NCBI RefSeq assembly: GCF_009389715.1
Contig: NC_052399.1
Coordinates: forward strand, 22,887,146-22,951,145
DNA from: Phoenix dactylifera
Taxonomy: Eukaryota > Streptophyta > Magnoliopsida > Arecales > Arecaceae
DNA: 64,000 bases
Reading direction: 5' to 3'
The notes below the pieces were generated by a model. That model was given only the letters and a program-made list of their open reading frames with translations. It made no database searches and was not told the origin of the DNA. Positions 7,440 to 55,800 of the stretch are shown here, in pieces. The position numbers and the translations under genes are program-made. How positions within the stretch are numbered: the stretch's first letter is position 1; each line of letters begins with the position of its first letter.

Positions 7440-10400
7440 ATGGAAGCGAGCCAGCTCACCGTCGCGACGGCATTCTCGGACTCGGACAACGGCAGCAGCG
7501 TCTGCTTTGGCGACGCCGTCCCCGCACCGGCGGACTCCGCGGCAGCCGACTTGGAGGCCTTCCGCCGCCTCTCCGACAACCTGGGCTCCGTCTTCCAGTC
7601 GCCGGACTTTGAATTCTGCGCCGACGCCCGCATCGCCGTCGCCGGCAGCCCCCCGCGCGAGGTCGGCGCACACCGCTGCGTGCTCTCCGCCCGGAGCCCC
7701 TTCTTCCGCGAGGTGTTCGCGAAGCGGGAGAAGGGGGCGCCGGCGAAGCTGGAGCTCAGGGAGCTGGTGAGGGACTTCGAGGTCGGGTACGAGGCCCTGG
7801 TGGCGGTCGTGGGGTACCTCTACAGCGGGAGGGTGGGACCGCTCCCGAGAGTGGTCTGCACGTGCGTCGACGAGGAGTGTTCTCACGGCGGCTGCCGGCC
7901 CGCCGTTGATTTCACGCTCGAGGTGCTCTATGCTTCCTTCACCTTCCAGATCTCCGAGCTGGTCAACCTCTTCCAGGTGAGGACATGCAAGTAGTCTCAT
8001 CTTTCTCTGTTTTCGTTTTCTTGAGGTTTTGGATGGTTTTGAGCAACGGGCTGGCTTAAAGATGAGTTCTTGGTTGGGTACAGAGTATATTTGGAGGTGG
8101 GTTCTCTTGAAATCTGCTCTTTAGTTCTTGTTTTCTTTCTTGAGGTTCATGGACGGCATTAAGTAATGGATTGCTTAGAAATGAGTTCTTAATTTAACTT
8201 AGTTTTTTTTTTCTCTCGAGGTATTGCGTGGTTTTAACTTTTAAAATAATGGGTTTCCTAAATTCTAAAAGATGCTTTCTTTGTTGGCTTTGAAACGACT
8301 TTTGGAGTTTCATTCTCTAAAGTTTAATGACCTTTGGTTTTCTCTTTTCTTTAGTTCTTATTTCTTTGTGTTTTGGATGGTTCAAGTAATGATTGTTAGA
8401 GAATGAGTTCTTGTTTGGTTTTGATTCGGTATCAGTTGCTTTTGGAGGTGGGTTGTCTGGAATCTGATCTTTTGCTGGCTTGCTGTTTACTTCTCCCTTG
8501 TTTTCTTGATGTGTTAGTAGTTTTAAGCAATAGGTTGGCTTAAAAAATGAGTTCTGAAAGGTGGTTAATTGGAAAATTTTGTCCTTCTCTTGATTGGGTT
8601 TGAATAAACCGTATTTGGATTAAAGATGATCTATTTACATCTTTGAGGATAGAAAGAAGGAGGTGGACGTTGACTAAAAATCTTTATGAGGAATTGGAGA
8701 ATGAACTTTATAGGTAGTTAAATGTGTTTGATCTTTCCAATTGCTTCATCATTTATACAATCGCACGCTTAGAACTAAAGGCTTATGAAACTGGCGTTGT
8801 GGTTCTGTGAATTTTCCTGAGATATTTGCTCTGTCATGGCTAACTTCTTTACACTTTCTTACTCAAAACTTGTATTTTTCTTGGGTCTTCTCTTTCTTGA
8901 CCCTTCTATATCCGAACCCCTTATCATTCTGCTTCCTCCTCATATTAATTGATCAGTGCATTCAGTTATGAAGCTTACCACCACCTTTGCATAGCTGTTC
9001 AACATGAGAATATTGTCACTGCTGAACTTAAGCTTGCTCTCAAGGCGAGCTTTGCAAACTCCAAACGATCAAATATGTCATGCTTTAAATGGTGTCGTTG
9101 AGCTCATATAAGTGAAAATTATGCTAGGAATGCATTATGAGATATTGAAGTGAAGTTGCGATGCACTTTAAGCAATTATATGGAAACTGCAAGGTTGGTT
9201 TTGACTAATAGGTCCAAGGTCAGGAAGTCATGTGTTGGGCCACCCTGGTGGGGTTAACCCTATTCTTCGAACCTTGGTTTCTTAATTGATTCCATTATAC
9301 TAGTTAACAATGCTTCAAAGTAAATAAATTTGGCTTTTTGATTGTTGTTGAGGACTCTGTGAAGATGGTAAGCCATCATTTTTTTTTTTTGGTTTCATTG
9401 CAGCGACACCTTCTTGATATTCTTGAAAAGGTGGCTATAGATGACATACCGGCGATTCTAAATGTTGCAAAACTATGCAGCAAGTCTTGTGCCAAATTGC
9501 TTACCAAATGCATTGAAATAATAGTGAAGTCAGACCTGGACACTGTGACACTTGACAAGGCATTGCCTCCAGATATTGTCAAGCAAATAATAGATTCACG
9601 GTTAAGTTTTGGATTAGTTGGACCTGAAAGCAGGGACTTTCCTGATAAACATGCAAAGAGAATACACAGAGCTCTTGATTCAGATGATGTTGAATTAGTT
9701 AGAATGTTGCTAAAGGAGGGGCACACCTCCTTAGATGATTCATATGCACTGCATTATGCTGTAGCACATTGTGACTCAAAAATCACTACAGAGCTTCTGG
9801 ATCTTGGACTTGCAGATGTTAATCACAGAAATCCAAGGGGTTATACTGTACTTCACATAGCTGCGATGCGTAAAGAACCAAAAATTATTGTTTCCCTTCT
9901 AACAAAGGGAGCTAGACCATCTGATCTAACATTAGATGGAAGAAAAGCACTTCAAATCTCGAAGAGACTTACCAAGTCTGTGGATTACAATAGGTATACT
10001 GAAGAAGGAAAAGCCTCTCCCAAGGATCGGTTGTGCATTGAAATATTAGAGCAAGCTGAAAGAAGGTACCCACAAATAGGAGAAGCCTCTGTTTCTCTTG
10101 CAATGGCAGGTGATGACTTGCGTGGAAGATTGTTATACCTTGAGAACCGAGGTAATTTATTTCTCTTCCTACAAAAATTGTTTTTTTGCATGTTAATCTT
10201 TTCAAGAGGAGTTTTGCATTTTGATCTTATAACAACAAAGTTATGTTTGGATTGGAGTCTGTTAAACTGATATGCATAAAACCATGTAGTTAGCTTTACA
10301 TTGCATGTCATTGAGGATCTAGTATCTTTAATTTCTCATCTGTATGATTCTGCAGATTAGTTAGCCAGATATGTTAGCTCTGTTTTCAGGTTGTTTTTGC

Positions 10401-14425: not shown

Positions 14426-14826
14426 GATCATTTTCCGCCCTATCTATCACCTTGAAATATTTGCCTGACATGTTCTTTTTTCTTTACTGCAAATATTAAA
14501 ATTAAAACCAAATGTTGTTAGTTTTCAATAACTTTGCTTTTGACTCTACTACTGATCTGCAACTAGACTTTTTCAGCAAACAGAAAATAAAGAAACAAGA
14601 TAGTAAATTTCAGCCGAAATTGAGTTTATTGAGATAGGCAGATGGAGCATACATTGTTTCAAGATTTCAATTTGTTACTAATTCTGCTTAAACATAGCAA
14701 AACTTGGATATTTTGGGTTAAGGCTCCTAAGAACATTCAGATCAATTTTTTTTTGTATCAATCCACTTTTCTCGGAGAAGGTGATGAGATTATTTGACCT
14801 AGGCCTCTAGGATCCTTGGGGATGAT

Positions 14827-15663
14827 TCAAAATCCATTTGCAGCCCATGGTGATGGTGGTGACACAAACGGGTTGGGGCCTGTAGGAACCTTGCGATTAA
14901 TTTCGTATCCATGGGTGTATCCAACTCCATTTTCTGCCTCCGGTGTTCCTGGTGATGTAATTGGATTGGGGCCTGTAGGAACCTTGCGATTAATTTCGTA
15001 TCCATGGGTGTATCCAACTCCATTTTCTGCCTCCGGTGTTCCTGGTGATGTAATTGGGTTGGGGCCTGTAGGAACCTTGCGATTAATTTCATATCCATGG
15101 GTGTATCCAACTCCATTTTCTGCCTCCGGTGTTCCTGGTGATGTAATTGGGTTGGGGCCTGTAGGAACCTTGCGATTAATTTCGTATCCATGGGTGTATC
15201 CAACTCTATTTTCTGCCTCCGGTGTTCCTGGTGATGTAATTGGGTTGGGGCCTGTAGGAACCTTGCGATTAATTTCGTATCCATGGGTGTATCCAACTCC
15301 ATTTTCTGCCTCCGGTGTTCCTGGTGATGTAATTGGGTTGGGGCCTGTAGGAACCTTGCGATTAATTTCGTATCCATGGGTGTATCCAACTCCATTTTCT
15401 GCCTCCGGTGTTCCTGGTGATGTAATTGGATTGGGGCCTGTAGGAACCTTGCGATTAATTTCGTATCCATGGGTATCTCCAACTCCATTGCTAGCCCATG
15501 GTGATGGTGGTGACACAATTGGGTTGGGGCCTTTCGGAACCTGGCGATCGATTTCGTATCTATTTTCAAATATAGTTGAAAACCCTCCAATTCTTGCTCC
15601 AAAAGCTTTGTCTAGAGATGACACGAGCAACACCACAACAAAAAGAGCTACTTTTTGAGCCAT
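14827..15663 (-). CDS. Secreted precursor with eight CLE-like peptide repeats
   Basis: A single-exon gene of 278 aa. The start is the ATG at 15663 because it opens a clear signal peptide (MAQKVALFVVVLLVSS, to about residue 22). Eight 31-aa repeats follow. Each holds R-K/Q-V-P-T/K-G-P-N-P-I/F, with the arginine at residues 40, 71, 102, 133, 164, 195, 226 and 257. This matches the 12-aa CLE signature R-x-V-P-x-G-P-N/D-P-L-H-N through position 9. Positions 10-12 are I-T-S or I/F-V-S, closer to the TDIF ending I-S-N than to L-H-N. Spacers are acidic (SPGTPEAENGVGYTHG) in inner repeats and SPPSPWA.NG in the first and last. Known CLE peptides are cut from secreted precursors, proline-hydroxylated and perceived by leucine-rich receptor kinases; multi-CLE precursors are known in a few plants and in cyst nematodes. 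Function here is inference. An AATAAA lies 197 bp past the stop. Confidence 0.8.
   Translation of the reverse strand: MAQKVALFVVVLLVSSLDKAFGARIGGFSTIFENRYEIDRQVPKGPNPIVSPPSPWASNGVGDTHGYEINRKVPTGPNPITSPGTPEAENGVGYTHGYEINRKVPTGPNPITSPGTPEAENGVGYTHGYEINRKVPTGPNPITSPGTPEAENRVGYTHGYEINRKVPTGPNPITSPGTPEAENGVGYTHGYEINRKVPTGPNPITSPGTPEAENGVGYTHGYEINRKVPTGPNPITSPGTPEAENGVGYTHGYEINRKVPTGPNPFVSPPSPWAANGF
14830..15546 (-). repeat. 93-bp coding tandem repeat of the CLE-like gene
   Basis: Eight units with an exact 93-bp period (for example GCCTGTAGGA at 14878 and 14971). The six inner units are nearly identical at the DNA level, while the outer two differ in spacer. The period keeps the reading frame, so the array is a coding repeat. 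Because 93 is a multiple of three, all three long open frames here come from the same repeat. Confidence 0.95.
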
Positions 15664-15715
15664 TTGTCTTGTAGCTCAGGTGAAGGTTGAATTTTTAGAT
15701 TGGGAATTATACAAA

Positions 15716-15722
15716 TTTATAG
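15716..15722 (-). promoter_or_regulatory. TATA box of the CLE-like gene
   Basis: On the - strand this reads CTATAAA, 53-59 bp before the ATG. A start of transcription about 30 bp downstream would leave a short leader of about 25 nt. Confidence 0.6.
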
Positions 15723-15742
15723 AATTGGGTTTCCCCAAGGAT

Positions 15743-16714
15743 ATGGAGAAAGGCCAACCATTTAAAACAAAATCATCATTCTCTGCAAAGATCTAATGGA
15801 TTAAATAGCTACCATTTTCTAAGAAAGAGAATGTAATAGCTTTGAATTGCAATAATGTGAATTTAATGACTTACATATATAATGGGATTTTCTTTTCTTT
15901 CATTTTTGGTATGGATTGGATTCCACCAAGGATATATACCAAATACATCCATTTAAGATATACTCTTGATTGTCTGCAACGTTCTGATGGATTAAATGAC
16001 TTTCATATTCTAGGAAAGGGAATATAATTACTTCCAATTTTGTGATCTGCTGAGGTAATGTGAATTTAATGACTTTCATATATGAGACAAAAGACAACCA
16101 TTTAAAACAAAATCATGATTCTCTACAAAGATCTAATGAATCAAATAGCTGCCATTTTCTAAGAAAGAGTCTGCAATAGCTTTGAATTGCAATAATGTGA
16201 ATTTAATGACTTAAGATCTTTTTTATTTCCTACTCACCTGGACCTATATCCTTACTTTTCTATCAATTTCTAATTCCGATCTGCCACCTCCACCCCCGAA
16301 AAAAAAATCTAATATTATAGCACCGGTGTAGACAGAAATTAAATTCCATTATTGTCCAATTCTAAATGGTAGTAAATACCGAAAGTTTGCAATATTTGAT
16401 TGATCACAATTCTTTATATTCCATTTACTATAAAGGTTCCTAGGAAATTCATTAGAAGAATATTTTCAATAAAAATGGTTTGTTCTTGCATATCTCTACT
16501 GGTTATATATGGGATTTTCTTTTCTTTCATTTTTGGTATGGATTGGATTCCACCAAGGATATATACTAAATGCATCCATTTAAGATATACTCTTGATTGT
16601 CCCCAAAGACCCGATGGATTAAATGACTTTCACATTCTAAGAAAGAGAATTTAATTACTTCCAATTTTATGATCTGCTGAGATAATGTGAATTTAATGAA
16701 TTTCATTTATGAGA
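15743..16714. repeat. Interleaved local duplications upstream of the CLE-like gene
   Basis: Two segments are each present twice in direct orientation. One of about 125 bp (15746-15872 and 16086-16214, offset 340 bp) includes ACCATTTAAAACAAAATCA. One of about 205 bp (15882-16092 and 16509-16714, offset 627 bp) begins GGGATTTTCTTTTCTTTC. They are similar but not identical. Since they lie directly 5' of the gene they may duplicate promoter sequence. Confidence 0.8.
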
Positions 16715-16785
16715 GATTTTCTGCTCCTTCATATGTGGAAAAGTTCACATAATTAGGGAGACACACCAACCATATCAATTGTTTG

Positions 16786-52868: not shown

Positions 52869-55800
52869 TTAGCGCTGTCTCTTAATTGCCCGTAGCTTAA
52901 CTCCTCGTCTGAATCCAAGAACCAAGCCATACTCAAGCTCCAGAGGGAATTCCATCTTTGGAGAGTGCCTAAAAATATAACGTCGATAGATATGGATGAG
53001 AGCTAGCTTGATTTCTTGCATGGCGAATCTCTGCCCGATGCATGCGCGTGGGCCAATTCCAAATGGAATGTGTGCATATGGGTGCCTTCGTTTCTCTTCG
53101 TCGCAAGCTGGGTCGAACCTCTCCGGCCGGAACACGTCAGGCTCCGGGAACTGCTTGGGATCTTTGGCCAAAACCCCGAGTGCAAGCCAAACCCACGTAC
53201 CCTGCATCAACAACTCAAAATTGTTGAACTCTTCTAGAGCTTGTAGAATGGCTCCAGCCTAGTTCACAAGAATAGTTTCTAATTGATGACAGTAGTGTGA
53301 GCATGGTCTGCGTACCTTGGGGAGGACATAGCCTCCAATTTCAACTTGCTGAGATGTTTCTCTTGCAACCAATGGGGAGACTGTATAGAATCTCATTGCC
53401 TCTTTCACTATCTGCATGAATAGATTCATTGTCGTTAAGCTGTGCAGTATTGGAAGAGTATTGAGCTTTATAACGTCATTTTTTTTCGGACTCAGCTATA
53501 GGAAGTTACTTCCCTGCTGGAATCCAACCACGATTACTTGTTTTGAAAGTAGTCGTGGATCATATTTCTTAGACAGCACTGAAATTATTCAAGGCTATAT
53601 AAAGATGCACCTGCTAGCATCATTATCAAACATAAAATTATTAGCTTCCAGTGGACCCAAGCACCGTAAATTTCGTATTTGAGATGTACAAATCTAGCTG
53701 GTATCTGATACATGTTAATTAACTGTGATTCAGGGGAAAGTTCAGAGGGGGATTCTCGTGGATGGCCTACTTAGTTCTTTTACAATCACACACACACACA
53801 CACACACACATTGAAGGTCCCCTCGAGAAAGCCTTATCCATATAACAATGATGTATTAGTACGTGCCGTGCAAGGATATATATGATGAACAAGTATGGCG
53901 ACACACTTGTCATGAAGGTATAATCCGGTTGAGCTATGAACCTAAACTGCTCTGGCACGCAATTAATTTATAAGAGTTGCATTTACCTGATCAAGATAGG
54001 GGAACTTGTCTTGCAGGTCTTCGGCAGTCGGAATTACCTCATGAGGGCCAAAGCTATCGATCTCCTCGAGCAGCTTCTTCTCAACCTCAGGATGTTTGGA
54101 GACTAAATAAACGGTAGATGCCACCGTGAAAGCTGTGGTCTTGGTCCCGGCAAGAAGGTGCTCATACGTGAGCGCCCGGATATAGTTATGGCTGAAGAGC
54201 TTCTCGCCCACACCTGAGTCCCTGGCATTCAGTACTGCAGCTAGGAAATCCTTCGGATCATGTGTCCTTTCCTTCGATCTTTTTGCAATGATCGCATCGA
54301 TTCTCTCGCATAGTTTCTGGTTATTGTGGTAAATCTTGTAGTCAGCAGTACCAGGGATCCGTTTGAGGAGTTCTCTGCATGGCTTTTGTAGGACCGGGGC
54401 TATCAAGCCCAAGCTCGTGGAGAGAGAGCTGGAGAGGTCCATCTTAAGGGATCCGATCGAGTACATGTGCTGCTTGAGGAAGCCAGAGACTTCGTCATCA
54501 TCGTCATTATTACAGACATCGCTGTAGCGATTTTGGAGTGTCTTTTGGGAAGAGGCAGCGTGTTTGGAGAGGTCGAATTCCACACCGAAAGCTGTTTTTC
54601 CAATGACATCGATCGCCATTCTTAAGGCGAGCTCGGAGAAGTCAATATCTTCTTCTTCTTCTTGGACATTGGAGACGTTGAGAGAAAGGGAGACTGCGTA
54701 AGATTGCATGGTGGGAATGAGGCTTGCGAGGTGGGAGGGTTGGTAGAGGGAAATGATGGTGTTTCGCATGGCTGACCACCTTGCATCCCTGGAAATTGAT
54801 GCATCACTTAATAAAACAGCAGTTGATGTATCACCTAATAAAACACATCGGCAGAAAAAATTCAATTCAATCTATACAAGGATTCAGAATTTTTTCTGTA
54901 AGAATCTGCTCATGTCGGTTATGTGCTGAAAAGATCTTGAGTAACCATACAAAACTAAAAAATTCAAAAAATATTATTTGATTAATATTTTTAGGTGATG
55001 GGGTTCTGGATTGTGGCACTTTTTGATCTAGGTATGATTTGGAGAAAACTAACTAGTCTTCTAATTACATGATTATCCATGTACTATATGGGTCTAATTC
55101 AACCATGATCATCATGCATGGCTTCAATCTTTAGTGATCTATGTGGCAATGAAGAACTGGTGTGGTCATGTGTCCCATGTAAGTTGAGCCAACTGTCGGG
55201 CACCATCTCAGGAGAGAAAAATGGGAAGGAGAATAGAGATGATGCTATTTTGGCCTTGGTGCGTTGTTATAGGCCGTCATTGTGATTTGACGTGCTACCA
55301 TGTAGCAGCCCTTCATCGAATGTGCTTTGTCCTGTTTTGCATTAGATGTTTTTCTGGGTGCACTTTTAGCATCTCTTTTCTTTGAGTGCAAATGGAGGTT
55401 TTATGGCCAATTATATTTGTAAAATTTTGAAGACCATTAGATGCACGTAAAGATATGTACGTACCTCGTAAGAAAAAGACCTTCCTGGTGGAGAGGCGAT
55501 CCAGAGGCGGGAGTAGGGCTGCTCCGGTTCTTTATATCTTTGAATTTCTTTAGTCCCACCTCCCTGCAGAGTTCTGGATCTGCTACTATTACGAGTGGTT
55601 GTCTCCCCAGGTGAAATCTGTGCATCAGAAACACCGTGATGAGTAGTTAAACATGGCGACTTCATATGCCAAGTTCCTGAAGAAACTATTCTATCTACCA
55701 ACTCTTTTTATTATGTTAATGTTAACGACAGGTTGCAGCTTGCTAGCTCCTGATGAAGAGGGGTTCCAATGGCACCACGTTTATACCTGCGCTATATTTC

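Follow-up and report, generated by a model that had tools for sequence, protein, structure and literature searches.

Within the window, a 64,000-nucleotide stretch of the date palm (Phoenix dactylifera) genome, the minus strand carries a reading frame that runs from an ATG at 15663 to a stop at 14827-14829. The sequence-only reading had described an intact, intronless gene at this position, and the frame bears this out, as its 278 codons form one uninterrupted exon; the strand had been left unstated in that reading. The features of the gene, its flanks and its multi-unit relatives are collected in Table 1.

Table 1. Features of the palm precursor gene, its flanking DNA and its multi-unit relatives (positions in the window)
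Feature	Position	Strand	Remarks
Multi-CLE-type precursor gene, including stop codon	14827..15663	-	278 aa, single exon; homologues in own genome
Signal-peptide-like start, residues 1-23, MAQKVALFVVVLLVSSLDKAFGA	15595..15663	-	Hydropathy; paralogues on C14 and C7 start alike
93-nt tandem array	14870..15560	-	TRF, 7.4 copies; units 2-7 mutually differ by 0-2/93 nt
CLE-like 12-mer 1, RQVPKGPNPIVS	15511..15546	-	
CLE-like 12-mer 2, RKVPTGPNPITS	15418..15453	-	
CLE-like 12-mer 3, RKVPTGPNPITS	15325..15360	-	
CLE-like 12-mer 4, RKVPTGPNPITS	15232..15267	-	
CLE-like 12-mer 5, RKVPTGPNPITS	15139..15174	-	
CLE-like 12-mer 6, RKVPTGPNPITS	15046..15081	-	
CLE-like 12-mer 7, RKVPTGPNPITS	14953..14988	-	
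CLE-like 12-mer 8, RKVPTGPNPFVS	14860..14895	-	
Upstream block common to the gene and relic B	15669..15896	-	~72% identity, ~230 nt
Partial recurrences of the upstream block, further upstream	15918-16083, 16098-16166, 16545-16722		Multiplied promoter-side sequence
TATAAAT, possible TATA box	15715..15721	-	By eye, may be chance; 52-58 nt before ATG
AATAAA, possible poly(A) signal	14625..14630	-	By eye, may be chance; ~200 nt past stop
C14 frame A			Nine units by eye, seven by script pattern
C14 frame C			Eight units by eye, seven by script pattern
C14 frame D			Two units; lacks the ATG present in C and E
C14 frame E			Five units
C7 frame			Five units, then stop inside repeats

The length of the frame was dropped as proof of coding. 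Three of the six frames lack a stop throughout the 93-nt array and the repeat period is divisible by three, so that a frame is kept open for free and openness counts as weak coding evidence here. The relatives of the gene appear to offer better support for the coding frame than its length does. When the 52 N-terminal codons are compared with relic B, a paralogue on contig C14, the coding frame gives a pN of 0.205 and a pS of 0.44; in the two shifted frames of the same strand, with stop-containing codons skipped, the contrast is weaker or reversed (pN/pS 0.238/0.343 and 0.255/0.213). Because relic B is decayed, part of the divergence between the two sequences is neutral.

The product begins in a signal-like manner by hydropathy. 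Its most hydrophobic 11-residue stretch, VALFVVVLLVS, occupies residues 5-15 (mean 3.29), and the best stretch of that length beyond residue 30 reaches 0.15. Cleavage presumably follows G22 or A23, according to the small-residue rule. The earlier interpretation is upheld as far as a secreted-looking, intronless, multi-copy CLE-type precursor is concerned. Pfam and PDB sequence searches with the protein returned no match, nor did an Rfam search of the window at gathering scores. CLE genes are usually selected by a basic pI, a length of 60-120 aa and a single C-terminal motif, as against a pI of ~6.2, 278 aa and eight motifs in the palm precursor. Published multi-CLE proteins, at 175-250 aa, likewise exceed the usual limits on length and motif number.

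Some 230 nt of upstream DNA is held in common with relic B, on which ground a retrocopy origin was rejected; copying probably took place at the DNA level and included the promoter region, rather than passing through reverse transcription. The window from 8.6 to 59 kb is colinear, in reverse, with C9:20505001-20535000, an old duplicate that includes an NPR1-like gene. To test whether the gene arose when the whole region was duplicated, the C9 stretch was searched with the protein by tblastn, and no match appeared at E <= 10. The CLE gene sits in a part of the window (12.7-34.5 kb) that has shrunk to ~3.5 kb on C9, which fits either loss there or later arrival here. Among the neighbours, the NPR1-like gene (window 7440-10123, plus strand) has BTB, ankyrin and NPR1_like_C domains and further copies on C9 (87% identical over one exon) and C11 (70%), and part of a cytochrome P450 gene lies at 53963-54871 on the minus strand.

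Eight CLE-like units

Cores of the form R-x-V-P-x-G-P-N-P start at residues 40, 71, 102, 133, 164, 195, 226 and 257, and all seven spacings are 31 aa, confirming the strict periodicity first proposed. The description of these as eight copies holds for the cores but not for the 12-mers, which comprise six identical peptides, RKVPTGPNPITS, and two variants, RQVPKGPNPIVS and RKVPTGPNPFVS. The CLE motif residues R/H1, P4, G6, P7 and P9 are present in every unit. R1, V3, P4, G6, P7, N8, P9 and S12 are constant, and amino-acid changes are confined to positions 2, 5, 10 and 11. Position 11 is T in six of the eight units, V in two and H in none; positions 12 and 13 are S and Pro throughout, and the residue before R1 is N or D, never basic. 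Six units fit RxVPxGP[ND]PITS exactly and the remaining two end in IVS and FVS. The CLE core first recognized covers positions 1-9; beyond it, positions 11-12 read T/V-S in place of the usual H-N/H. The motif is no chance product of composition: when one unit, treated as circular, was shuffled 2,000,000 times, [RH].VP.GP[ND]P appeared in 19 of the shuffled sequences.

Unit 1 differs from units 2-7 at 20 or 21 nucleotides, and the near identity of units 2-7 among themselves points to recent amplification, that is, to young repeats. Motif identity among units 2-7 was accordingly rejected as a sign of selection; it says nothing on the matter, because the DNA itself is almost identical. Between older units, comparison of unit 1 or unit 8 with the middle units gave pN/pS of 0.20/0.26 and 0.174/0.195, and with pN so near pS the units as wholes give little indication of selection. 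When five genes were compared, the 12-mer columns were more alike than the flanks (0.47 versus 0.24, column permutation 0.015), in units chosen and aligned on the core, a procedure that favours core likeness. The unit number is taken from one assembly of near-identical repeats, and may vary between plants.

Relatives in the date palm genome

Genome-wide, 33 places match R/S-x-V-P-x-G-P-[ND]-P, eight of them within the gene; the reversed pattern, used as a control, matches six. No second copy of the gene is among the 33. Loci were extracted for 30 of these places, leaving 22 outside the gene, and at 17 of the 22 the 12-mer ends in H-N or H-H. These 17, taken as single-CLE loci and containing 11 distinct 12-mers, were used to build a matrix; L036, L043, L044, L048 and L050 were left out because a stop interrupted the motif or the ending was unrelated. 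The occurrence of H11 in all 17 was discarded as a count, as the loci had been kept partly for that ending. Judged instead by the extracted loci with a frame of at least 95 aa around the motif, H at 11 with N/H at 12 is found in 15 of 16, the exception being L043, which has S at position 1 and its motif close to the frame start. In 13 of the 15 a K precedes R1, a residue absent there from the palm units. In two of the 17, L037 and L047, the frame spans just 47 and 48 aa, respectively; either locus may be a relic or a partial exon. L024 (C7) and L035 (C9) are ordinary CLE loci with similar precursors, RVVPTGPNPLHN and RAVPTGPNPLHN, by eye a likely duplicate pair. Three pairs of small contigs, C129/C593, C290/C718 and C400/C1132, have the same motif DNA and are perhaps unmerged haplotypes.

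On the matrix, whose scores at positions 1-9 are partly circular because the training loci were picked by the same core pattern, the palm 12-mers reach 21.8-24.2 bits, as against a training range of 30.8-37.2. The best score in other frames of the window (784 frames of at least 40 aa) is 14.5; 2,000 shuffles of the protein yield 19.4 at most. The published units of rice CLE76 score 22.6 and 22.9, near the palm units.

Multi-unit relatives emerged when the genome (773,078,369 bases in 2391 contigs) was searched with the whole protein, which found four further places. Paralogue frames were read by eye and with a script pattern over 90 kb on C14 and 18 kb on C7. The interval C14:4795975-4843658 contains multi-unit frames A, C, D and E together with relic B, which is the closest paralogue of the palm gene and is decayed. 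With frame E as the query the palm gene is recovered at E = 2.7e-13, and a short piece at C14:4829113 (E = 0.028) is a possible extra relic; the family may be larger than these frames. Between frames C and E, 52 codons give a pN of 0.051 and a pS of 0.13.

The C14 cluster has the same layout as the palm gene, with a similar signal-like start and a spacing of 29-31 aa, but differs from it in its units, such as HEVPSGPNPIQN, HKVPTGPNPLHN and RIVPGGPNSQSH, in having mostly L before position 1, and in the greater divergence of the units from one another. Frame E carries HKVPTGPNPLHN, a complete CLE 12-mer, and RKVPPSPDPIHN, also among the C14 units, is one off at position 6. In frames C and E there occurs HEVPSGPNPIQN, which lies one residue from TDIF, given as HEVPSGPNPISN (PMC7552357).

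Function and alternatives

In light of the array, the signal-like start and the relatives, the gene is read, with a probability of roughly 0.72, as encoding a secreted multi-CLE precursor of plant hormone peptides, the peptide itself appearing closest to published rice CLE76. By analogy with CLE hormones we infer its expression, secretion, hydroxylation, cutting and receptor binding. Led by its signal peptide, the precursor would enter the secretory pathway and be hydroxylated at Pro4 and Pro7 of every unit, and proteases would cut around each core to yield up to eight CLE-like peptides, which would then bind a CLE-type LRR receptor kinase. "One message, eight hormones" is put forward as a hypothesis. 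Because the units end in T/V-S followed by Pro and have no basic residue before R1, their sequence suggests that they are processed differently from ordinary CLE peptides or perceived by a different receptor. The Pro at position 13, in particular, would be expected to hinder ordinary carboxypeptidase trimming to the 12-mer.

The two differing C-terminal residues also raise the question of what the peptides would do once released. That they are antagonists of CLE signalling, or ligands of another receptor branch, seems unlikely on the sequences at hand, although S occupies position 12 in all eight units and a change from N to H at position 12 is reported to accompany inhibition by a switchgrass TDIF-like peptide (PMC8496505). 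The PITS ending is common to rice CLE76 and so may be old. TDIF itself has S at position 11, however, so that the end of the peptide tolerates some change.

Distinctly unlikely is a decaying or never-functional duplicate, whose middle unit was recently multiplied by unequal crossing-over and stayed open since the unit is stop-free. The near identity of units 2-7 (0-2 of 93 nt), the closeness of pN to pS between older units and the three frames of six open over the array would all be expected of such a sequence, and the family has its casualties, in that relic B is decayed, frame D lacks an ATG and the C7 copy has a stop in its repeats; the duplicated C9 region, moreover, contains no match to the gene. 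Yet the palm frame is intact from ATG to stop, and its N-terminal pN/pS against relic B is ~0.47 in the coding frame, a contrast that weakens or reverses when the frame is shifted. In addition, the amplified peptide is identical at 11 of 12 positions to a rice multi-CLE unit, which drift would hardly retain.

Far less probable still is a proline-rich cell-wall or arabinogalactan-like glycoprotein that works intact and resembles CLE incidentally: P, A, S and T together make up 35% of residues 24-278, below the share of about 50% or more that is usual in AGPs, SPPPP runs are absent by eye, the core fits the CLE positions and paralogues bear whole CLE 12-mers. This holds even though the protein has Pro-rich repeats with SP, TP and GP pairs behind its signal-like start and the Pro at 13 might impede trimming to the 12-mer. 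The two kinds of protein can be mistaken for each other, one radish multi-CLE gene having been entered in a public record as a proline-rich receptor-like kinase (PMC11172632).

Comparison with published multi-CLE genes

The multi-CLE precursor favoured here joins a class described by Oelkers et al. in 2008 from five proteins of 175-250 aa with two to six motifs, for which signal amplification by multiple motifs was already proposed at that time (PMC2254619). A multi-CLE protein has at least two motifs at a regular spacing of ~30 aa, and the palm gene has eight at 31 aa. The H at position 11, almost invariant according to that account (PMC2254619), is usual rather than defining, as the accepted members rice CLE76 and TDIF (S at 11; PMC7552357) lack it.

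The sequence-only reading held that such precursors are known in only a few plants, a view that is out of date: 59 multi-CLE proteins in 27 species are attributed to Goad et al. 2017 as cited in PMC8496505, and radish has eight-domain genes (PMC11172632). Eight units are no record, and multi-CLE precursors have previously been described from rice, wheat, legumes and radish. No paper on palm multi-CLE genes was among the matches listed, the coverage of Goad et al. 2017 aside. The palm gene is mildly unusual for its peptide ending, its recent repeat growth and its cluster history. It adds a palm to the multi-CLE precursors, with a small family on C8, C14 and C7 that has differing units and decayed copies, and offers a test case for a question named in the cited papers, namely how multi-motif CLE precursors are processed and whether a higher copy number strengthens the signal.

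The monocot switchgrass gene PvTDIFL3 has two or three TDIF-like motifs and has been tested in plants, and precursors with two or three motifs are reported to be no more active in Arabidopsis than a one-motif precursor (PMC8496505). Wheat TaCLE26 has four domains, of which its authors suspected that only the first is functional (PMC6747155). Among legumes, MtCLE14 has seven CLE domains, four of them identical, and GmCLE37a/b have six; these genes are reported to group separately from those of rice (PMC4526924). Similar in layout are RsCLEm1 and RsCLEm2 of radish and BnCLEm of B. napus, which have a signal peptide and, like the palm gene, eight tandem CLE domains with short spacers; BnCLEm3 has five domains to the palm's eight. 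The likeness is one of layout; these genes form a brassica group, for which the passages of PMC11172632 state no link to monocot genes.

The most interesting point of the palm gene is the PITS ending that it shares with rice, which points to a peptide subtype; no test of it was found in the literature searched. In that literature the strings GPNPITS and RKVPTGPNP were not found, and GPDPITS and RKVPTGPDP occurred in PMC2254619 only. A wider reading of the shared ending, based so far on a single palm genome and a single published rice gene, would posit a multi-CLE lineage of palms and grasses with PITS-ended units, whose peptides are antagonistic or act on a separate receptor branch and whose dosage is set by rapid change in unit number; this is a long shot. 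Rice CLE76, as tabulated in PMC2254619 (Table 2), has two units each of RKVPTGPDPITS and REVPSGPDPITS, spaced at 25-29 aa. It resembles the palm gene in its single exon, regular spacing and PITS ending, and in that RKVPTGPDPITS matches the palm unit at 11 of 12 positions, but differs from it in having four units rather than eight at 31 aa, D instead of N at position 8, and different flanks.
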